Shown piece after piece: positions 16,962 to 27,070 of a DNA stretch of 64,000 nucleotides (position 1 is its first letter; each line of letters opens with the position of its first letter). A program made the translations under genes and the position numbers. The stretch is from Anaerolineales bacterium (GTDB lineage: Bacteria > Chloroflexota > Anaerolineae > Anaerolineales > UBA11579): positions 62,001 through 126,000 of the forward strand of contig JAHBVC010000001.1 of the NCBI GenBank assembly GCA_019637755.1, read 5' to 3'. The notes under the pieces are model-generated. The model worked only from the letters and a program-made list of their open reading frames with translations, had not been told where the DNA came from and ran no database searches.

Positions 16962-17122
16962 TTGCGTAGGTAGCGCCCTTGCCTGGGGTGCTACGAAAAA
17001 AGGCACTCGTTGCGAGAAGAACACTCGCGGCGGAAAAGGCATTCGTTGCTAGAAAAGCACCCGCGAGCCGCAGGTTCGGGCCTACGCCGCGACTAAAAAG
17101 ACCGTCTACTGACGGTCTTTTC
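16962..17122 (+). pseudogene. Second decayed tRNA-Pro-like copy with an 18-bp repeat insert and terminator
   Basis: The flanks AGCGCCCTTGCCTGGGGTGC and GCAGGTTCGGGCCTACGCC correspond to the two halves of tRNA-Pro. Between them lie about four degenerate 18-base units built on AGGCACTCGTTGCGAGAA. The unit ends in a strong hairpin AAAAGACCGTC/GACGGTCTTTT (17095-17122). It appears to be a further-expanded relative of the 16846 copy. Confidence 0.6.
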
Positions 17123-17167: not shown

Positions 17168-17524
17168 TTAGAAGATTCCCCAGTCGGCGCCGGCGCCTTC
17201 CTCCATGTAGGTCAGGTCCCACATTTCGGTGCCCATCATGATCGTGGTGTCGCGTTGCAGTGCATCGGCGGCTTTCTTGCGCGTCATTTCCAGCAGGGCG
17301 GGGGCGTAAGGGCAGAAGGGCGTGGTCATGATCATGATCACTTTGCCCTTGTCTTCTTCCAGGGCTACGTTGCGCACCAGGCCCAGCTCCAGCACGTTCA
17401 GGCCGATCTCCGGGTCAACCACCTCACGCAGGGCGGCTTCCACCGCGGGCACCAGATCCGGGTTGGTGCTTTCAATTTCCCAGGTGGCAGTTTTTGCGGG
17501 GTCTTGCGAGGCTACGGGACTCAT
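17168..17524 (-). CDS. MIP18/SufT-like iron-sulfur assembly factor
   Basis: A 118-residue protein of the MIP18 (DUF59) family. The hallmark VVDPEIGLNVLELGLVRNV, the strand GKVIMIMTTPFCPYAP with its conserved cysteine, and the C-terminal MWDLTYMEE are present. Family members help insert or transfer iron-sulfur clusters. The gene begins 16 bases after sufR on the same strand, so both should be made from the SufR-controlled promoter, which supports a role in Fe-S maturation. GGAG lies upstream of ATG 17524. Confidence 0.9.
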   Translation of the reverse strand: MSPVASQDPAKTATWEIESTNPDLVPAVEAALREVVDPEIGLNVLELGLVRNVALEEDKGKVIMIMTTPFCPYAPALLEMTRKKAADALQRDTTIMMGTEMWDLTYMEEGAGADWGIF

Positions 17525-17540: not shown

Positions 17541-18182
17541 CTAGGGTTTGGCAGCGGGCTTGATCGCCGCCATCGGAATGGTGTAGGTGCAGTGGCTGTC
17601 GCCGCTGAGCAGGCACGAGGTGCGCTGCGGGTCGGCCGAGAGCGCCTTGGCGATCAAGGCCTTATCGATGCTGCATACTTCGCCGTGGTTTTGACCCACA
17701 TAAAAGTAGGGGCAGCTGGTTTCTTTGATGATCAGTTCGTTTTCGTTGCGTTGCACTTGAACGCTGAAGCCTTCTTTGGTGAGCCAGTTCTTGAGCAGCT
17801 TCAGGCGCTCATCCAGGGTCATCGAGGGCAGATCGCTGGCAGCGGCCAAGTCGGCGGCGGCCGAATCGCCCATGCCATCCAGCAGGCGGGCGAACTGCTC
17901 CGCCGGCAGGGTCTCTTTCAGCTCATCCAGTAGGCGGTTGGTGAAGCGAATGGTGCGCCCTGGGAAGTGCTCCATGCCCGCTTCGGTGAGGTAATACACG
18001 CGGCGCGGCCGGCCTACGCCGTGGCGCTCTTCGGCCGAGGCCACCATGCCCTCCGTTTCCAGGCGGGCAATGTGGTGGCGCACCGAGATCGGGCTGATCT
18101 TGACCGCCCGAGCCAACTCATTGATCGTGCTGCGCTGGTGATTGAGCAGAAATTTAAGAACGGCGTTGCGTGTGCTGCCCAT
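17541..18182 (-). CDS. sufR: SufR-like iron-sulfur-sensing repressor
   Basis: The 213-residue regulator has an N-terminal winged helix (STINELARAVKISPISVRHH, then GRPRRVYYLTEAG) and a C-terminal region with spaced cysteines: CPYFYVGQNHGEVC, C near SADPQRTSC and GDSHC. Cyanobacterial SufR uses such cysteines to bind a [4Fe-4S] cluster and to repress suf genes when clusters are plentiful. It is followed by the sufT-like gene. Its promoter carries the same inverted repeat as the suf operon promoter at 20318-20372, so autoregulation and control of sufCBDSU are likely (inference). Confidence 0.9.
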   Translation of the reverse strand: MGSTRNAVLKFLLNHQRSTINELARAVKISPISVRHHIARLETEGMVASAEERHGVGRPRRVYYLTEAGMEHFPGRTIRFTNRLLDELKETLPAEQFARLLDGMGDSAAADLAAASDLPSMTLDERLKLLKNWLTKEGFSVQVQRNENELIIKETSCPYFYVGQNHGEVCSIDKALIAKALSADPQRTSCLLSGDSHCTYTIPMAAIKPAAKP

Positions 18183-18191
18183 GACGTTGGC

Positions 18192-18246
18192 AGTATATCA
18201 CCCGCATTTCGCCCCGTCAATATTTTATAGTTTCCTCATAAATAAT
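18192..18246 (-). promoter_or_regulatory. sufR promoter with inverted-repeat operator
   Basis: On the minus strand TTGACG (18220-18215), 17 bp and TATACT (18197-18192) lie nine bases before the sufR ATG. The operator AATATTT-N14-AAATAAT (18219-18246) overlaps the -35 box. It is 28 bp long, like the copy at the suf operon. Confidence 0.8.
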
Positions 18247-18249
18247 ATG

Positions 18250-18852
18250 CTAGCGCACCATCTCCAAGGCGGAGTAGGCCAGCAATAAGGCCAGCAGCAG
18301 GTTGACCGTGTGGCGTAGTGCGGGGCGGTGCATGTGCTGCCGCACCCAACTGCCGAACAGGGTCCAACTGCTTACCGAGAAGGCCGAGATCAGCGTCAGC
18401 CCGAGCGCGATCAACACCAGGCTGCGGGCTTGGCGCGCCTCGGCCGCGAAGAAGGTTGAGAACAGAGTGAGGGCGAACACCAGAAACTTGGGGTTCAGTA
18501 ATTGCAGGGTGAAGCCGGCCCACAACCCGGCGGGCTGGGTGGCGGCGTTGGGGTGGGCGTCAAATTGGTAGCTGGTTTTGAGGATACTCACTGCCAGGTA
18601 GATTACGTAAGCCGCGCCGGCATAGGTCAGCAAGGCTTCCAGCGCGGGGAAGCGTGCCAGCAGCGTGCGCGCCACCCAGGCGCTCACCAGGCACATCAGG
18701 AAGAAGCTGAGGCAGATGCCCACCAGGAAGGGCAGGGTTTTGCGTAAGCCGTACAGCGTGCCCATTGCCGCGCTGGCAATGTTGTTCGGGCCGGGCGTGC
18801 AGATCGAGATCAGGGCGAAGGCCAGCGCCGGCCCCAGCGTAGCCAGGTTCAT
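18250..18852 (-). CDS. LysE-family transporter
   Basis: A 200-residue membrane protein with six predicted helices. The LysE/RhtB signature is clear: ISICTPGPNNIASAAMG near the N-terminus and LQLLNPKFLVFALTLFS in the middle. Family members export amino acids or related small molecules. Its ATG overlaps the stop of the AraC-type regulator by four bases, so the regulator probably controls it. The 3' end lies next to the sufR operator. Confidence 0.9.
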   Translation of the reverse strand: MNLATLGPALAFALISICTPGPNNIASAAMGTLYGLRKTLPFLVGICLSFFLMCLVSAWVARTLLARFPALEALLTYAGAAYVIYLAVSILKTSYQFDAHPNAATQPAGLWAGFTLQLLNPKFLVFALTLFSTFFAAEARQARSLVLIALGLTLISAFSVSSWTLFGSWVRQHMHRPALRHTVNLLLALLLAYSALEMVR

Positions 18853-19691
18853 GCGCGCACCTGGCGCGCGTAGCGCCCGGGGGTGACGCCGATGGTTTGC
18901 TTGAAGCGCCGCGTGAAGTGGCTTTGGCTGCTGAAGCCGAGCTGGGCGGCAATGGCCGCCAATGGCTCGCCGAGGGCGATGAGGCGCTGGGCCGCGGCGA
19001 TGCGCCGGTTCTCCAGATAGGCGTGTGGCGGCATGCCCACTTGGGCATGGAAGCTGCGTAGAAAGTGAAAGCGGCTGAGCGCTACCAGCTTGGCCAGCTG
19101 ATCCAGCGAGACGGGTTTATCGTAATTGGCGTCGAGGTATTCCACGGCGCGGTCGATCGGCGCCGGGCGCTCCGGGTGGCGCGGCGCCTGGTTGGCAAAG
19201 GCGCGCAGCAGGCTGCCCAGCGTGCTGACGAAGGCGCTCTCGGCGTGCAGGGGATCGTGCGCCGCGCTGGGTGTGCGGTGCAAGCGCCGGAAGGCGGCGG
19301 CCAGGCGTGGATCATCCTGGCGTGGGTGATTGAACAGCGGCAAGCGCGGCCCCAGGCCGGCGCTGGCCGCCACGCGCTGCACCTGAGCAGGGCGCGGGTA
19401 CATGGCGCGGTAGCGGAAGCCGCCGCCCGGCAGCGGTTCGCCGGTGTGGCTGTCGCCCGGGTTGAGGAACACCATGCCGCCGGCCGCGGTGTAGTAGCGC
19501 TGCTGCCCCAGGCGGAACGATTGGCGGCCTTCTTCGATCACGGCGATGACGAAGTAATCATGGCTGTGCAGCGGATAGGCGTGCTGCACAAAGTAGGCGT
19601 GCAGCAGATCGACCCCCAGGCTGGCATGGTGGCCGTACTGTGCCCATTCGCTCGCCGGGCTGGCGTTGTGGTGCGTTGCCGTGGAGTGCAC
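18849..19691 (-). CDS. AraC-family transcriptional regulator
   Basis: The 280-residue protein has a cupin-like ligand domain (residues 25-140: AYPLHSHDYFVIAVIEEGRQ, MVFLNPGDSHTGEP) and a C-terminal pair of helix-turn-helices (LDQLAKLVALSRFHFLRSF and LAAIAAQLGFSSQSHFTRRF). The GTG at 19691 lies six bases after TATACT, so a leaderless start is preferred to the in-frame ATG at 19730. It overlaps the downstream LysE transporter gene by four bases; together they look like an exporter with its regulator. Confidence 0.88.
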   Translation of the reverse strand: MHSTATHHNASPASEWAQYGHHASLGVDLLHAYFVQHAYPLHSHDYFVIAVIEEGRQSFRLGQQRYYTAAGGMVFLNPGDSHTGEPLPGGGFRYRAMYPRPAQVQRVAASAGLGPRLPLFNHPRQDDPRLAAAFRRLHRTPSAAHDPLHAESAFVSTLGSLLRAFANQAPRHPERPAPIDRAVEYLDANYDKPVSLDQLAKLVALSRFHFLRSFHAQVGMPPHAYLENRRIAAAQRLIALGEPLAAIAAQLGFSSQSHFTRRFKQTIGVTPGRYARQVRA

Positions 19692-19697
19692 TGCATC

Positions 19698-19703
19698 AGT
19701 ATA
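19698..19703 (-). promoter_or_regulatory. -10 box for the leaderless araC-type gene
   Basis: TATACT on the minus strand is six bases before the GTG start. The palindrome GAGCCGCC-CGCC-GGGCGGCTC (19705-19725) lies directly upstream and may be an operator or the terminator of the DinB gene. Confidence 0.55.
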
Positions 19704-19743
19704 GAGCCGCCCGGCGGGCGGCTCTATCACAAAATTGCGCTGC

Positions 19744-20217
19744 TTACGCCTTCAGCGTGCACATCGCCTGGCGGATCTCGCCCAGGTGGTAGGCGCTGTG
19801 CACGATCACGCCCAGCACCCCGCCGATGGCGTCTTCGTTCCAATCGGGGTTATTGCGGATCACGTTCTGCATGCGGCCGTAGGCGGCGCGCAGTTGGTTC
19901 TTGTACTCCTGCCATTCTTCGGCGTTCACCTTCTCCACGCGGCGCCAAATGTCGCCCCAGTCGCGCGGGCTGTCGTCGCCCTCGAAGGCATAGCGTTCGA
20001 AGGATTCGATATAGAAGGTGGTGTGCGCCACCTGGGCGGCCAGCGAGGCGCACTTGCCGCCCACCGGGATCGAGGCTTCCTCGGCGCTGATCGTATCCAG
20101 CGTGGCGAACAAGGCATTGTTCTTGTCGAGGTAGATGCCGTGATGCGTTTCAAAGGTTTCTTCCAGGAAGACGTTGAGCAGGTTGCTAAAAGTTTCGGGT
20201 GCGATCGACAGTTTCAT
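19744..20217 (-). CDS. DinB-like four-helix protein
   Basis: A 157-residue protein of the DinB/YfiT-like superfamily. It shows the expected three-helix core and the histidines of the metal site, including QVAHTTFYIESF and VHSAYHLGEIRQAM. Family members include thiol-dependent S-transferases; this one's substrate is unknown. ATG 20217 has a perfect GGAGG box; the longer frame from 20271 lacks one. It sits between the AraC gene and the suf operon without clear relation to either. Confidence 0.85.
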   Translation of the reverse strand: MKLSIAPETFSNLLNVFLEETFETHHGIYLDKNNALFATLDTISAEEASIPVGGKCASLAAQVAHTTFYIESFERYAFEGDDSPRDWGDIWRRVEKVNAEEWQEYKNQLRAAYGRMQNVIRNNPDWNEDAIGGVLGVIVHSAYHLGEIRQAMCTLKA

Positions 20218-20317
20218 GAGAACCTCCTGAGGAGTGGCTAGTGGTTTAGTGCAATGCAGCCCCATTATCAAACCATATTTCTTTAGTGGGGCTGGCTGTC
20301 AAGGTATTCGTCGCGCC

Positions 20318-20372
20318 AATATTTTAGATTTTCCTCATAAATATTGACCCTGTGAAGTGAACCTGCTATAAT
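20318..20372 (+). promoter_or_regulatory. suf operon promoter with SufR-type operator
   Basis: TTGACC (20344-20349), 17 bp and TATAAT (20367-20372) form a near-ideal promoter. A perfect inverted repeat AATATTT-N14-AAATATT (20318-20345) overlaps the -35 box in the same geometry as at sufR. The inner 14 bases also share the segment TTTTCCTCAT. Confidence 0.85.
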
Positions 20373-20447: not shown

Positions 20448-21227
20448 ATGTCTCAACTGGAAATTCGTGATTTGCACGTTAATGTAGCAGGCAATGAGAT
20501 CCTTAAAGGCCTCAGCCTGACGATCGAAAAGGGCAAGGTGCACGCCCTGATGGGCCCCAACGGCAGCGGCAAGAGCACCCTGGCGTACACGCTGATGGGC
20601 CACCCCAACTACGAAGTCACCGCTGGTGAAGTGTGGTTCAAGGGGCAGAACATCCTTGAGCTGGAGCCAGACCAGCGCTCGCATCTGGGCATCTTCCTCG
20701 CCTTCCAGTATCCGGTGGCCATCCCCGGCGTCAGCGTGGCCAACTTCCTGCGCACCGCGCTGAATGCGCACCGCAAGGCCAAGGACCCTGAGGATAAGGG
20801 CATGCCCATCCCCGAGTTCCGCACGCTGATGAAAGAGAAGATGGACCTGCTGAAGATGGATCACAGCTTTGCTGGCCGCTACCTCAACGACGGCTTCTCC
20901 GGCGGTGAGAAGAAGCGCGCCGAGATCCTGCAGATGGCCGCGCTCAACCCGGAGTTTGCTGTGCTCGACGAAACCGACTCAGGCCTGGATATTGACGCGT
21001 TGCGCAATGTGGCCGAGGGCGTGCAGGCGCTGCGCGGGCCGAACTTCGGCGCGCTGGTGATCACGCACTACCAGCGCTTGCTCAACTACATCAACCCGGA
21101 TGTGGTGCACGTGATGTTCAACGGCCGCATTGTGGAAACCGGTGGCCCCGACCTGGCGCTCAAGCTGGAAGCGCAGGGCTACGACTGGGTGCGCGAGAAG
21201 CATGGTGAATCAGTAATCAGTGAATAG
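20448..21227 (+). CDS. sufC: SufC, Fe-S assembly ATPase
   Basis: A 259-residue ABC-type ATPase that powers the SufBCD scaffold. Walker A is GPNGSGKST, the signature is [12 protein letters not shown] and Walker B is [13 protein letters not shown], all typical of SufC. ATG 20448 follows TAGGAGAAAA; the longer frame from 20391 lacks a ribosome site. It is the first gene of sufC-sufB-sufD-orf102-sufS-sufU-Rieske. The transcript starts about 70 bases upstream at the SufR-type promoter. Confidence 0.97.
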
Positions 21228-21306
21228 TAAACAGTGAGCAGGTCAGCTGAGTAGTTTAGATTTTTTGCTTTTCGCCGGTTCACTACTCACAGATCACTAT
21301 TCACTC
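21215..21306. repeat. GTGA-rich inverted repeat between sufC and sufB
   Basis: AGTGAATAGT near 21218 and ACTATTCACT near 21294 form the ends of a large imperfect hairpin with further GTGAGCAG-like segments inside. The same repeat family lies between sufD and the next gene, before valS and after gtrA. Confidence 0.7.
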
Positions 21307-21320
21307 CAAACGAGGTAAAC

Positions 21321-22754
21321 ATGACACTCGAAAAACCAATTGAGAAACCCAAAGATGATGCCGAGCTGTTGGCTGGCATTGATGAATACCGCTGGAACTT
21401 TGTAGATGAAGTCAAGCCGGTCTTTCGCACGCGCAAAGGGCTGGACGAAGAGATCGTGCGCCAGATCAGCGCCAAGAAGGAAGAGCCGGAGTGGATGCTC
21501 GATTTTCGCCTGAAGGCGTACAAGCATTTCACCCAGCGCCCGATGCCCACCTGGGGCGGTGATCTCGACAAGCTCAATCTCGACGAGATCTATTTCTACA
21601 GCAAGCCCGCGGAAGCCGAAGGCAAAAACTGGGACGATGTGCCCGAGAATATCAAGAAGACTTTCCAGCGGTTGGGCATCCCCGAAGCCGAGCAGAAGTT
21701 CCTGGCCGGCGTAGGCGCCCAGTACGAATCGGAGATGGTCTATCACAACATCCAGCAGCACCTGGCGGAGCAGGGGGTGCTGTTCAAGAGCATTGAGCAG
21801 GGCCTGAAAGACCACCCGGAGTTGTTCCGCGAGTATTTCGGCACGATCATCCCCATCGAGGACAACAAGTTCTCGGCGCTCAACTCCGCGGTATGGTCGG
21901 GCGGCTCGTTTGTGTATGTGCCCAAGGGCGTCAAGATCGAGATGCCGTTGCAGGCCTACTTCCGCGTCAACCAGGCCGATCAGGGCCAGTTTGAGCGCAC
22001 GCTGATCATCGTGGATGAAGGCGCTGAGGCGCACTATGTGGAAGGTTGCACCGCTCCCGTGTACACCACCGACTCTTTCCATAGTGGTGTGATCGAGATC
22101 ATCGTCAAGAAGAATGCGCGCTTCCGCTACACCACCATCCAGAACTGGTCGAACAACATGTACAACCTGGTGACCCAGCGTGCCTATGTGTATGAGAACG
22201 GCACGATGGAGTGGGTGGATGCCAACCTGGGCAGCAAGCTCACCATGAAGTATCCCTCGTGCTACTTGCTGGGGGAAGGTGCACACGGCGAGATCCTCTC
22301 GATGGCATTTGCCAGCGGCCACCAGCACCAGGATACCGGCGGCAAGGTGATCCACTTTGTGCCCAACACCACCAGCAAGATCACGTCTAAATCGATCAGT
22401 AAGAGCGGCGGGCGTGCCTCGTACCGCGGCTTGCTGAAGGTGCACCCGGGCGCAGAAGGCTCCAAGAGCAACGTCGTGTGTGATGCGTTGCTACTGGATG
22501 ACCAGTCGCGCTCGGACACCTATCCGTATATCGAGATCGACGCTGAGGATGTCACCATCGGGCACGAGGCCTCGGTCTCCAAGGTGGGCGAGGAGCAGCT
22601 CTTTTATCTGATGAGCCGCGGCATGACGGAAGAAGAAGCCGCCACGATGGTGGTGTCTGGCTTCATTGAGCCGTTGGTCAAAGAGTTGCCCATGGAATAT
22701 GCGATTGAAATGAATCGCCTGATTCAGCTGCAAATGGAAGGCTCGATAGGCTAA
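21321..22754 (+). CDS. sufB: SufB, Fe-S scaffold subunit
   Basis: The 477-residue scaffold matches the usual SufB length. Recognisable parts are [19 protein letters not shown] at the N-terminus, the beta-helix core with [20 protein letters not shown], and the C-terminal [17 protein letters not shown]. The cysteine of EGCTAP and the others in the core support cluster assembly. It forms a complex with SufC and SufD. The start at 21321 is preceded by an ACGAGG box. Confidence 0.97.
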
Positions 22755-22810
22755 TGCCTGGGCTAGCGCCTTAGGCTAAAAACCTCTCGATGGAATGAGA
22801 AACGCAAGCT

Positions 22811-24592
22811 ATGGCAGATAAAAAGAAAACCAGCCCGCGCCCCAAGAAGGCGGCGGTAAAGAAAAAGACCAAAGTGGCCGCCAAGGCTACTAAACCGGTA
22901 GCCAAGAAGAAGCTGGCTACAAAAGCCACCAAGCCGGTTGCCAAGAAGAAGGCTGCGCCCAAGGCCAAGCCTAAAGCTGTTGTGAAGAAGAAGGCGGCTA
23001 GCAAAGTAACTAAGAAGACTGCGGTTAAGAAGACCGCTGCCAAGAAAACGGTTGCCAAAAAGACGGTTGCTGTCAAGAAGACAGCGGCTAAAGTGGCTGC
23101 CAAGAAAACCGTAGCCAAGGTCAAGCCCAAAGCCGCCGTCAAGAAAGCGGCGCCTAAGGCAACTGCCCCTAAGCAGGCTAAGCCGGCTGCTTCGCAGCCT
23201 GTGGCCGCTGCGCCGGTTGCGCCCGAAGTGATCGGCGCCGGCAAGACGCCGCGCGTGATCACCCGCGGCGGCGCGGCTGCCGTGCAGACCAAGAGCGGCT
23301 TCCCCTTCACCGCCGAGCAGATCCCCAACGGCGTGAAAGAGGCTGCCTTCCTGCACAGCTACCGCGCGAGCGCGTGGAGCCATTTTGAGAACCTGCCGCT
23401 GCCCAGCACCAACGATGAGGCTTGGCGCCGCACGGACATCCGCCAGCTCAAACGCGGCTCCATGAAAATCGTAGACAGCCTGCCGGCCGCCGAGCGTGCC
23501 GCGCTGCCCAGCACGCCTACCCAGCTGCTCAAGCCGCTGGTGGGCGAGGGCCACGGCGGCCAGATCGTCTTTGGCCCCGGCGAGACCACGGTGATGCTGA
23601 GCCAGGAAATAGCTAACCAAGGCGTAGTGTTCACCGACTTTGCCACGGCGGCCGCCAAGCACCCAGAGTTACTCAAGAAGGTGCTCGGCAATGTGGTCAA
23701 GCCAGAAGAGGGCAAGTTCGCCGCTATGGCAGGTGCTTTGGCCGGCCGCGGTGCGCTGCTGTATGTGCCGCGCGGCGTGCAGGTGGAAGAGCCGCTGCAC
23801 TCCCTGCTGTGGGGGCCGGGTGCGGGCATGGCTTACTTCTCTCACATCCTGGTGTGGGTGGAAGATGGCGCTTCGGTCACCTATGTGCACGAGTCGGCTT
23901 CGCCCACCATCAGCGAGCAGAGCATGCACGCTGGCATCGTGGAGCTGCACGTGGGCTCTGGTGCCAACCTGCGCTTCGTCGAGCTGCAATCGTGGGGCGA
24001 GCACATGTGGAACTTTACGCATGAGCGTGCCCGAGTGGAAAAAGATGGCAACCTGGACTGGATTTTTGGCGCCCTGGGCAGCCACCTCACCAAGAATTTC
24101 TCCGAGATTAACCTCGAGGGAGAGGGCAGCCTGGGCCGCATGTCTGGCTTCTACTTCACCGATGGCGATCAGCATCTGGACCATGACACCCAGCAGAACC
24201 ACATGGCGGCGCACACTACCAGCGATCTGCTCTTCAAGGGCGCGCTGGAAGAAAAGAGCCGCTCGGTATGGCAGGGCATGATTTACGTAGCCCCCGGTGC
24301 CCAGCGCACGGATGGCTACCAAGCCAACCGAAACCTGGTGCTGAGCAAGGAAGCCCGCGCCGACAGCATCCCTGGCCTGGAGATCCTGGCCGACGATGTG
24401 CGCTGCACCCACGGCGCCACCGTAGGCAAGATTGACCCGGATGAGTACTTCTATCTGCTCAGCCGTGGCATCCCCCCGGTGGAAGCGCGCCGCTTGATCG
24501 TGAAGGGCTTCTTTGACCCGATCATGGAGCGCATTCCTTTCGAGGGCGTGCGCCAGCGCTTCCAACAAGCCATTGTTCAGAAGATGAAATAG
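22811..24592 (+). CDS. sufD: SufD with an N-terminal histone-H1-like lysine-rich extension
   Basis: The 593-residue protein carries an ordinary SufD from about residue 160 onward: ENLPLPSTNDEAWRRTDI, YVPRGVQVEEPLHSLLW, DGDQHLDHDTQQNHMA and HGATVGKIDPDEYFYLLSRG. Before it lie about 130 residues made almost only of K, A, V, T and P in repeats such as KKTAAKKTVAKKT, like the tail of histone H1. SufD normally begins near the core, so the extension is an addition. It may bind DNA, RNA or acidic surfaces (inference). The frame is open throughout and the core has no obvious alternative ATG; an internal GTG start cannot be excluded. Confidence 0.93.
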   Translation: MADKKKTSPRPKKAAVKKKTKVAAKATKPVAKKKLATKATKPVAKKKAAPKAKPKAVVKKKAASKVTKKTAVKKTAAKKTVAKKTVAVKKTAAKVAAKKTVAKVKPKAAVKKAAPKATAPKQAKPAASQPVAAAPVAPEVIGAGKTPRVITRGGAAAVQTKSGFPFTAEQIPNGVKEAAFLHSYRASAWSHFENLPLPSTNDEAWRRTDIRQLKRGSMKIVDSLPAAERAALPSTPTQLLKPLVGEGHGGQIVFGPGETTVMLSQEIANQGVVFTDFATAAAKHPELLKKVLGNVVKPEEGKFAAMAGALAGRGALLYVPRGVQVEEPLHSLLWGPGAGMAYFSHILVWVEDGASVTYVHESASPTISEQSMHAGIVELHVGSGANLRFVELQSWGEHMWNFTHERARVEKDGNLDWIFGALGSHLTKNFSEINLEGEGSLGRMSGFYFTDGDQHLDHDTQQNHMAAHTTSDLLFKGALEEKSRSVWQGMIYVAPGAQRTDGYQANRNLVLSKEARADSIPGLEILADDVRCTHGATVGKIDPDEYFYLLSRGIPPVEARRLIVKGFFDPIMERIPFEGVRQRFQQAIVQKMK

Positions 24593-24611
24593 GCGTAAGA
24601 TAAGAGATTAG

Positions 24612-24722
24612 ATCAATAGAGTGAATGGTGAGCAGTGAGGAGTGAACAGGAGCATTGAGACTGGAAAGTAGGTGATCAGTCCCTCGGTTTCCTGATTACT
24701 GCTCACTGTTCACCGCTCACTT
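24612..24722. repeat. GTGA-rich inverted repeat between sufD and orf102
   Basis: GTGAGCAGT, GTGAACAG and their complements ACTGCTCAC and CTGTTCAC lie on opposite sides of this 110-base gap, so alternative hairpins can form inside the operon transcript. It is the same family as 21215-21306. Confidence 0.7.
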
Positions 24723-24737
24723 GCTTTCGGAGGTTGA

Positions 24738-25046
24738 ATGGCAGAACTTCGCTTTACAAGCGCCCCTGACCGCGACGACATGTACAAGGTAGGCGACCGC
24801 GTAGAGGTCTATTGTGACCACGAAGACCCCAAAGGCAACCGCGTACGCGGCTGGCTGGAGGGTGTGGTGGTGCAGGTAGACCCCAAGATCGTGGCGGTGC
24901 AGTTCGCCGAGCCGGTGTACTTGACCGACGGCTGGATGGTGCCCGACCACGTGTTGTGGTGTCCGCCCAATTCGCAGCAGATCCGCATGGCGCGCAAGCG
25001 CACGCGCAAACCGCGTGCCACGCGCACCACGCGCAGCAACAAGTAG
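24738..25046 (+). CDS. Small SH3-like protein with basic tail, in the suf operon
   Basis: I do not recognise a named family for this 102-residue protein. Residues 15-70 look like a small beta barrel (YKVGDRVEVYCDHEDPKG, VRGWLEGVVVQVDPKIVAVQ). The last 20 residues are strongly basic (MARKRTRKPRATRTTRSNK). It has a clear GGAGG, and only three bases separate it from sufS, so it should be co-translated with the Fe-S machinery. A nucleic-acid or partner-binding accessory role is possible but not shown. Confidence 0.75.
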   Translation: MAELRFTSAPDRDDMYKVGDRVEVYCDHEDPKGNRVRGWLEGVVVQVDPKIVAVQFAEPVYLTDGWMVPDHVLWCPPNSQQIRMARKRTRKPRATRTTRSNK

Positions 25047-25049
25047 GGG

Positions 25050-26294
25050 ATGATGGCCGAAGCCAATCACACCATTGATGTCGCTCGCATCCGCGCCGAT
25101 TTCCCGGTTTTGGATGTTGAAATCAAGCCCGGCGTACCCTTGGTTTACCTCGATTCAGGCGCCACCAGCCAGAAGCCCGTGCAAGTCATCGAGCGCATGA
25201 ACCAGTACTACCGTGCCGAGAACGCCAACATTCACCGCGGCGTGCACAAGCTGGCCGAGCAGGCCACCGAGGATTACGAAGGCGCCCGCGCCAAGGTGGC
25301 CAAGTTCATCAATGCCGCCAAGAGCAAAGAAATCGTCTTCACCCGTAATGCGACCGAGTCGGTGAACCTGGTGGCGCAAACCTGGGGCCGCGCCAATTTG
25401 CAGGCGGGCGATGTGGTTGTGCTCACCGAGATGGAGCACCACGCCAACCTGGTGCCCTGGCAGATGCTGGCCGCTGAGCGCGGCATCCGCCTCGAATTCA
25501 TCCCCGTTACCGAAGCTGGCGTGCTGGACATGAGCGCATTGCCCGGCCTGATGGAGCTCAAGCCGAAACTGGTGAGCTTCACCGCCATGAGCAATGTGCT
25601 CGGCACGATCACGCCGATCGCCGAGATCGTGCAGGCCGCCCATGCGGCGGGTGCACTGGCGATGGTAGACGGCGCCCAATCGGTGCCGCACCTACCCACC
25701 GATGTGCAGGCGCTGGATATTGACTTCCTGGTCTTCTCCAGCCACAAGATGCTCGGGCCGACCGGCATTGGCGTACTGTATGGCAAAGAAGCCATCCTCG
25801 AAGGCATGCCGCCCTTCATGGGCGGCGGCGACATGATCAAGCGCGTCAAGCTGCGCGAGTTCACCACCGCCGGCGTGCCGCACAAGTTCGAAGCCGGCAC
25901 TCCGGCGATTGCCGAAGTGATCGGCCTGGGTGCGGCGGTGGACTATTTGAACGCCATCGGCATGGAGGCCATCGCCGCCCATGACCGCGAGCTGACCGCC
26001 TATGCGCTGGAACGTTTGGAAGAGGTGCCGGGCATCTGGATCTTTGGCCCGGGCATCGAGCACAAGAGCTCGAACGCCTCGTTCACGCTGCAGGGCGCCC
26101 ACCCGCACGACGTGGCTGAGATCCTCAATCGCCACGGCGTGGCCACGCGCGCCGGGCACCACTGCGCCATGCCGGTGCACGAGAAGTTTGGCGTGCCGGC
26201 CACCACGCGGGCCAGCTTTTACCTCTACAACACCACCGCCGAAATTGATAAACTGGTGGAAGCCCTCTACTCTGTAAAGGAGATCTTCGGTTAA
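25050..26294 (+). CDS. sufS: SufS cysteine desulfurase
   Basis: A 414-residue group II cysteine desulfurase that takes sulfur from cysteine and hands it to SufU. The PLP lysine is in FSSHKMLGPTGIGVLYG, the cofactor-binding ATESVNLVAQTWG and MVDGAQSVPH are present, and the catalytic cysteine is in RAGHHCAMPVH. Two adjacent ATGs (25050, 25053) are possible starts. It lies three bases after orf102 and two bases before sufU. Confidence 0.97.
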   Translation: MMAEANHTIDVARIRADFPVLDVEIKPGVPLVYLDSGATSQKPVQVIERMNQYYRAENANIHRGVHKLAEQATEDYEGARAKVAKFINAAKSKEIVFTRNATESVNLVAQTWGRANLQAGDVVVLTEMEHHANLVPWQMLAAERGIRLEFIPVTEAGVLDMSALPGLMELKPKLVSFTAMSNVLGTITPIAEIVQAAHAAGALAMVDGAQSVPHLPTDVQALDIDFLVFSSHKMLGPTGIGVLYGKEAILEGMPPFMGGGDMIKRVKLREFTTAGVPHKFEAGTPAIAEVIGLGAAVDYLNAIGMEAIAAHDRELTAYALERLEEVPGIWIFGPGIEHKSSNASFTLQGAHPHDVAEILNRHGVATRAGHHCAMPVHEKFGVPATTRASFYLYNTTAEIDKLVEALYSVKEIFG

Positions 26295-26296
26295 TC

Positions 26297-26701
26297 ATGG
26301 ACGATCTCTACCGTGAAGTAATCATCGATCGCTACCAAAACCCGCGCTTCAGTGGCACGCTGGACCCGCATACCCATTCCTATGAGGATGACAACCCGGT
26401 GTGCGGCGACCACATTCGTATTGACCTGCGCGTGGATGCCAACGATGTCGTTTCCGAAGCCAAGTTCACCGGCGAAGGCTGCTCGATCTCGCAGGCTTCG
26501 GCCGATTTGCTGATGGAAAAGATCACTGGCATGCCGGTGGCCGAAGTGCGCCAGCTTGGCAAGCAGGATATTCTTGACCTGCTCGGCATCGAGCTCGGCC
26601 CGGTGCGCCTGAAGTGCGCGCTGCTCTCGCTCAAGGTGCTCAAGGGCGGCGTGTACGGCCTCGACGAAGTGATCTCACTCGACGAGCTGGCGGAGTCCTA
26701 G
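26297..26701 (+). CDS. sufU: SufU sulfurtransferase/scaffold
   Basis: The 134-residue protein has the three conserved zinc/sulfur cysteines of SufU in NPVCGDH, TGEGCSISQAS and RLKCALLSLKVL, plus the insertion region typical of SufU rather than IscU. It accepts persulfide sulfur from SufS. It starts two bases after the sufS stop codon. Confidence 0.96.
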   Translation: MDDLYREVIIDRYQNPRFSGTLDPHTHSYEDDNPVCGDHIRIDLRVDANDVVSEAKFTGEGCSISQASADLLMEKITGMPVAEVRQLGKQDILDLLGIELGPVRLKCALLSLKVLKGGVYGLDEVISLDELAES

Positions 26702-26710
26702 CCAGACGCT

Positions 26711-27070
26711 ATGCCTGAACTCGGAACCTTTACTTTTACCTCCCTCGGTCCCAAGGAAGTGGATTTTGTGGCCGTGGCTAGCGAAGCGGAGTTGCCCAAC
26801 GGCAAGCGCCTCTTCGTCAGTGTGGACGAATACAACCTGGTGGTGTTCAACATCGCCGGCGAATACTTTGCCATCGCCGATCTGTGCTCGCATGACAATG
26901 GGCCATTGGGCGAGGGCGAGCTGGAAGGCCACGAGATCATTTGCCCGCGCCACGGGGCGCGCTTCGACGTGCGCAATGGCCGCGTGCTCAGCCTGCCGGC
27001 CGTGCTCGACATCCCCGCGTACCCCACGCGGGTCAGTGAAGGCATGGTGGAAGTGGGGCTGCCGCTGTAG
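26711..27070 (+). CDS. Rieske-type [2Fe-2S] ferredoxin
   Basis: A 119-residue soluble Rieske protein. The cluster ligands are in CSHDNGPL (C-x-H) and CPRHGARFD (C-x2-H). No membrane anchor is present, so it resembles ferredoxin components of dioxygenases or stand-alone electron carriers. As the last gene of the suf operon it may supply electrons for cluster assembly (inference). A terminator follows after 20 bases. Confidence 0.93.
   Translation: MPELGTFTFTSLGPKEVDFVAVASEAELPNGKRLFVSVDEYNLVVFNIAGEYFAIADLCSHDNGPLGEGELEGHEIICPRHGARFDVRNGRVLSLPAVLDIPAYPTRVSEGMVEVGLPL

Follow-up and report, generated by a model that had tools for sequence, protein, structure and literature searches.

The window, as the term is used here, is the whole 64,000-nucleotide stretch of contig JAHBVC010000001.1 from an Anaerolineales bacterium of the phylum Chloroflexota. 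It carries a suf operon and, 2.3 kb away on the opposite strand, a gene for a SufR-like regulator followed by sufT, with three inserted genes between these two units. The features of the locus are as follows:

17096..17121, no strand: hairpin with T runs on both sides, a possible terminator of the sufR–sufT unit
17168..17524, minus strand: sufT-like MIP18/FeS_assembly_P protein (PF01883), directly behind sufR
17541..18182, minus strand: sufR-like regulator, winged helix plus invariant C157, C170, C190 and C198
18192..18220, minus strand: sufR promoter, TTGACG-17-TATACT, TG preceding the -10
18219..18246, minus strand: putative sufR-side operator copy, ATTATTTATGAGGAAACTATAAAATATT in the sufR sense, continuing into the -35 TTGACG; one mismatch in the outer arm
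18250..20217, minus strand: insert between the operator copies, encoding a LysE-type exporter, an AraC-type regulator and a DinB-like protein
20318..20345, plus strand: putative sufC-side operator copy, AATATTTTAGATTTTCCTCATAAATATT, continuing into the -35 TTGACC; arms perfect
20344..20372, plus strand: sufC promoter, TTGACC-17-TATAAT, TG preceding the -10
20448..27070, plus strand: suf operon, including a Rieske gene
20448-21227, plus strand: sufC
21321-22754, plus strand: sufB
22811-24592, plus strand: sufD
24738-25046, plus strand: 102-aa open reading frame between sufD and sufS
25050-26294, plus strand: sufS
26297-26701, plus strand: sufU
26711-27070, plus strand: Rieske protein

Profile matches bear out the SufR-like, MIP18, SufC, SufS, SufU, LysE and AraC identities given in the first-pass annotation; the DinB identity is less secure, with a weak match to PF12867 (23.1 bits vs a gathering score of 24.8). 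The hairpin at 17096..17121 has to be read against the finding that terminator-like sites are no commoner than in shuffled sequence. Two proteins of the operon have features of their own. SufD begins with a histone-H1-like extension rich in Lys and Ala (30% Lys, 27% Ala) and about 150 residues long; the extension is 93–107 residues long in four sister species and only about 20 in most other relatives. The 102-aa protein, which had no Pfam or NCBIfam match, is a conserved member of suf operons throughout the order.

The regulator starts with a winged helix-turn-helix (residues 3–48; HTH_24, 3.8e-9; HTH_5, 2.4e-7), and comparison with solved structures gave generic winged-helix matches only. It matches TIGR02702 (SufR_cyano) over its whole length (E=2.7e-26), but its 92.5 bits fall below the curated cut-off of 178.8 bits, and it is therefore called SufR-like, as distinct from a proven member of the cyanobacterial equivalog. 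(The cut-off was passed by only one of 14 control genomes; Corynebacterium glutamicum, whose SufR has been studied, was among the controls with matches.) All four cysteines are invariant in 16 homologues and are predicted Fe-S ligands. The spacing of C157, C170 and C198 (X12, X27) is that of the essential C203, C216 and C244 of Mycobacterium tuberculosis Rv1460 (PMC6034842). The gene is also linked to the suf operon by position, being adjacent to it and divergent in many relatives within the order.

An inverted repeat, AATATTT-N14-AAATATT, is present twice in the window, at 18219-18246 with one mismatch and at 20318-20345 with none. The number of matches expected by chance for this 28-bp repeat in the window is 0.02, and two were found in none of 100 shuffles. 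Read in the sense of the gene, both copies place AAATATTGAC at the -35 in the same register, so that each forms the upstream edge of a -35 box, and both promoters have a 17-bp spacer with TG preceding the -10. Coordinates, mismatches and spacers all agree with the original description of a repeat lying over the -35 of both promoters. The sufR ATG, at 18182, is only about 10 nt past the -10, and the sufR mRNA is therefore probably nearly leaderless.

The comparison set comprised several hundred Chloroflexota genomes. Within the family, 17 of 24 genomes have a clear SufR orthologue (44–100% identity), the other matches being weak paralogues. In G009, which belongs to the same genus, and in most other genera, sufR and sufC stand next to each other in divergent orientation, separated by a single palindrome, GTCAATATTT-N14-AAATATTGAC, that has TTGAC at either end; both -35 boxes are therefore built into what appears to be one operator. 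The LysE/AraC/DinB insert is absent from G009, the closest adjacent-type relative. The comparison suggests that the single shared site is the ancestral state. Thus, the first-pass annotation's notion of one operator shared by sufR–sufT and sufCBDSU describes these relatives well, but the window genome itself has two copies. (With a threshold of E 1e-60, sufC was not found in six family genomes, G010, G012, G014, G015, G019 and G022, which also lack a close sufR. As G012 is 92% complete, a genuine absence of the suf system is possible there.)

What lies inside the repeat? The N14 spacer originally described has the right length, but it is not free sequence, since it holds GA-N6-TC. In the 34-mer, the GA at positions 13 and 14 pairs with the TC at positions 22 and 21 in 62–100% of sites, as opposed to about 36% when the inner bases are shuffled, and AATAT-N4-GA-N6-TC-N4-ATATT is the most fitting way to write the putative operator. 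When compared by eye, the inner WWGA-N6-TCWW shares its spacing, but not its sequence, with CAAC-N6-GTTG, the known SufR site (PMC8593673, PMC11995493). At all the sufR loci searched, CAAC-N6-GTTG was absent within 300 bp upstream of the gene, bar scattered one-mismatch matches, so the site is indeed unlike the CAAC/GTTG type, as had been claimed. The whole-genome search proposed in the first-pass annotation was run with this refined dyad: allowing up to three mismatches, a pattern scan found exactly two places in the 2.26-Mb genome, both of them the suf operator copies, while the reversed-dyad control gave no match in the same genome. G009 has the refined dyad once, at suf.

The split arrangement, with two copies in the same orientation, is shared by the window genome with G001 and with six further species of its genus. 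In that genus, every two-copy genome has the refined dyad exactly twice, always at suf. The DNA between the copies is far less constant: within the genus it holds one to three genes in varying sets and orders (DinB alone, LysE plus DinB, or all three), in G001 it holds an unrelated 182-aa gene, and in other split lineages it contains unrelated genes (named from their sequence) or no open reading frame. Many genomes from other families have sufR and sufC separated by 2–11 kb, by about 50 kb (G103) or by 194 kb (G069), or place them on separate contigs, and all 22 distant sufC genes examined have an operator copy, degenerate in a few genomes, just upstream of the -35/-10. The SufR tree, in which a number of branches are long or poorly supported, calls for at least 10 changes between the adjacent and split states, and a return from split to adjacent is possible. 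The observation that the operator was kept while the neighborhood changed thus extends to numerous lineages in which the inserts are unrelated or the units unlinked; LysE, AraC and DinB do separate the units in the window, as described, but are just one of many unrelated insert sets. In family f93 (L242, L244, L245 and L247), the interval between sufR and sufC holds no inserted gene but two operators, spaced by about 65 bp, and such tandem operators are a plausible first step of the split.

Several species of the genus have DinB- and LysE-like genes at this position, and this recurrence could be taken to mean that the inserted LysE, AraC and DinB-like genes belong to the SufR circuit, with the operators paired around them. 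This is the least probable of the explanations considered, hardly to be credited when the genes present and their order differ among members of the genus, when other split lineages have unrelated inserts or no open reading frame, and when the sufC-side copy has no outward -35. The inserts were rejected as regulon members on the ground that their content varies.

Once the two genes have moved apart, each site serves one promoter only, and the fate of the half that faced the lost partner is informative. The outward GTC, part of the partner's -35, is intact at 21 of 21 adjacent loci and at none of 57 split sites. The outer arm, AATAT, nevertheless survives with at most one mismatch in 52 of those 57 sites, which are related by descent and do not amount to 57 independent events. 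(The 21 adjacent loci exclude G002, G003 (both loci), G341, G395 and G167, where sites are variant or ambiguous. The split set excludes the sufR side of G378, G334 and G313, where no site was found, and includes their sufC side; the split sufC sites of G041, G292 and G069 have a -35 shifted by one base (TTTGA) and were aligned by hand.) Because the outer arm survives the loss of the outward -35, and because the inserts differ between lineages, the dyad is evidently under selection as an operator and is not a by-product of the promoters. The contrary view is that the palindrome merely reflects two symmetric strong promoters, its arms being A+T-rich -35 flanks of the UP-element kind. Symmetry at the adjacent loci could indeed come from two outward promoters, and the arms do abut TTGAC. 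However, such flanks would not explain an outer arm that outlasts its -35 box, nor the pairing of the inner GA/TC element, nor the sites in G023, G420 and G095 that lie over or beside a -10 rather than a -35. The by-product explanation, which we regard as very improbable, was rejected on the first of these points.

How far does the site extend? Among 400 Chloroflexota genomes, close SufR homologues occur throughout the order and in part of the class. The site stands upstream of sufR in the same register in most genomes of the order, and variants of it are found in relatives within the class. In the order-wide scan, the refined dyad matched 87 of 201 genomes, vs seven for the reversed control; far from being absent before the suf genes of relatives, the motif is widespread at sufR and/or sufC in the order. 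Three genomes of family f3 (G378, G334 and G313) have no site at sufR and just a weak one at sufC. The exact 34-bp bidirectional form had 28 matches among 84,980 species; 23 of these are at suf loci, all in Chloroflexota, and the other five are in unrelated phyla, away from suf genes. The searched regions upstream of SufR-like genes in other Chloroflexota classes did not yield the motif, and the phylum-wide pattern matches in those classes look like chance. By eye, however, two loci from such classes, L154 and L161, have different inverted repeats just upstream of the sufR TTGACA (TTTCGAAAG-N6-CTTTCGAAA in L154), and the position of the site may therefore be kept while its sequence changes between classes.

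Which genes would such an operator control? Since sufT stands directly behind sufR in the window and in its relatives, its MIP18 product would be expressed from the sufR promoter, and its addition to the regulon, as already suggested in the first-pass annotation, is well supported. In the window genome and its two-copy sisters, the genome-wide scan found the refined dyad at no place outside suf. Elsewhere, additional sites are seen in scattered genomes. The operator sequence is found upstream of metE in two genera (G183, L271 3655-3682; G292, L270 2838-2865), just upstream of a -10-like hexamer, and upstream of a superoxide dismutase gene in the sister genomes G420 (L269 2682-2709) and G095 (L272 3178-3205), where it overlaps the -10 of a TTGACA-17-TACAAT or -TAAAAT promoter; MetE and the dismutase were named from sequence. 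It also precedes the gene for an FbpA-type ferric-iron-binding protein in G127 (L233 1501-1528), in the usual -35 register, and, in G023, an ErpA-type carrier and a cysM-JAB-ThiS group (L224 3441-3468 and L164 4258-4285). On this basis, sod, fbpA, metE, the ErpA-type carrier and cysM are predicted regulon members in one or two genomes each.

These additional targets bring up the main rival explanation, namely that the site belongs to another regulator, most plausibly of the Fur/PerR or Rrf2/IscR type, and that sufR merely sits in a regulated operon. Fur is the foremost candidate because each of the 11 genomes of the genus encodes a Fur-family protein (PF01475). An iron or peroxide regulator would fit the fbpA and sod sites in other genera, and the non-suf targets in general would suit Fur- or PerR-type control. 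The A+T-rich core of some sites (TGATAATTATCA) is reminiscent of Fur boxes, although the spacing is probably not that of the Fur consensus. On the other hand, Fur usually has several targets, whereas the window genus has the site at suf only, and this lack of further sites in the genus disfavors it; in other genera, fbpA and sod are isolated instances, not members of a set of several iron genes with sites in one genome. The site is found at sufR itself through most of the order, which speaks against another regulator. (Three genomes of the genus have Fur without a sufR orthologue or a suf site, a weak argument since sufC was not found there either.) Control by another regulator is thus unlikely. 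We put the probability that the 28-bp dyad is the operator of the neighboring SufR-like Fe-S regulator at roughly 0.8. The site, its position and conservation, its two states and the survival of the dyad once the second -35 is gone are seen in the sequence; binding by SufR is what we infer.

If so, AATAT-N4-GA-N6-TC-N4-ATATT would be bound by the SufR-like regulator encoded beside it, and since the dyad covers the upstream edge of the -35 box, bound SufR should exclude RNA polymerase and block transcription. By analogy with studied SufR proteins, Fe-S scarcity would cause SufR to lose its cluster and leave the site, whereupon sufR–sufT and sufCBDSU would both rise. Ancestrally, one operator would have served two back-to-back promoters, supplying their -35 boxes from its two ends. 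In the lineage of the window, the operator would then have been doubled as a direct repeat, each daughter retaining the whole dyad and one -35, with unrelated genes coming to lie in between. A more specific proposal is that the SufR of Anaerolineae reads an extended 28-bp dyad, with two elements per half-site, that fuses divergent promoters; that duplication of this dyad came first, time and again, and so let unrelated genes enter a divergent, autoregulated promoter with control retained; and that sod, fbpA, metE, cysM and the ErpA-type carrier were recruited in single lineages. For this combined proposal, the odds are about even.

In cyanobacteria, SufR acts at operators between sufR and sufBCDS, with separate high- and low-affinity sites (PMC8593673, PMC7058544, PMC6034842). 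There, too, a winged-helix protein with C-terminal cysteines is encoded divergently from suf, and an intergenic operator governs both units. The site there is CAAC-N6-GTTG, however, whereas the one described here is a 28-bp, A+T-rich dyad that forms a -35 box at each end, and the cysteines are spaced C-X12-C-X13-C-X14-C in cyanobacteria and C-X12-C-X19-C-X7-C here. Actinobacterial SufR proteins are known from Streptomyces avermitilis, C. glutamicum and M. tuberculosis (Rv1460) (PMC11995493, PMC6034842). They are autoregulated and control suf, as proposed here, and the sufR of Rv1460 has been reported to be leaderless, where a nearly leaderless sufR is likely in the window. In contrast to the divergent arrangement and -35 site described here, the actinobacterial sufR heads the suf operon, and its CAAC-N6-GTTG site overlaps the -10. 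IscR differs from SufR in both protein family and sites. Nevertheless, in the control of isc/suf in Proteobacteria, it represents the same kind of Fe-S-sensing feedback on Fe-S biogenesis genes (PMC8593673). A literature search found no paper on a Chloroflexota SufR.

Taken as they stand, the sequence comparisons support a SufR-type operator of new sequence across an order of Chloroflexota, duplicated and split in the window genome. This provides a defined, testable operator for a bacterial order, with sufT as a proposed target and, in some lineages, sod, fbpA, metE, cysM and the ErpA-type carrier. The split loci constitute a natural experiment in which selection for operator function can be told apart from selection for promoter function. 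Finally, the series of states, from one shared site through two tandem sites and inserted genes to unlinked units, suggests how a divergently regulated pair comes apart while its control is retained.
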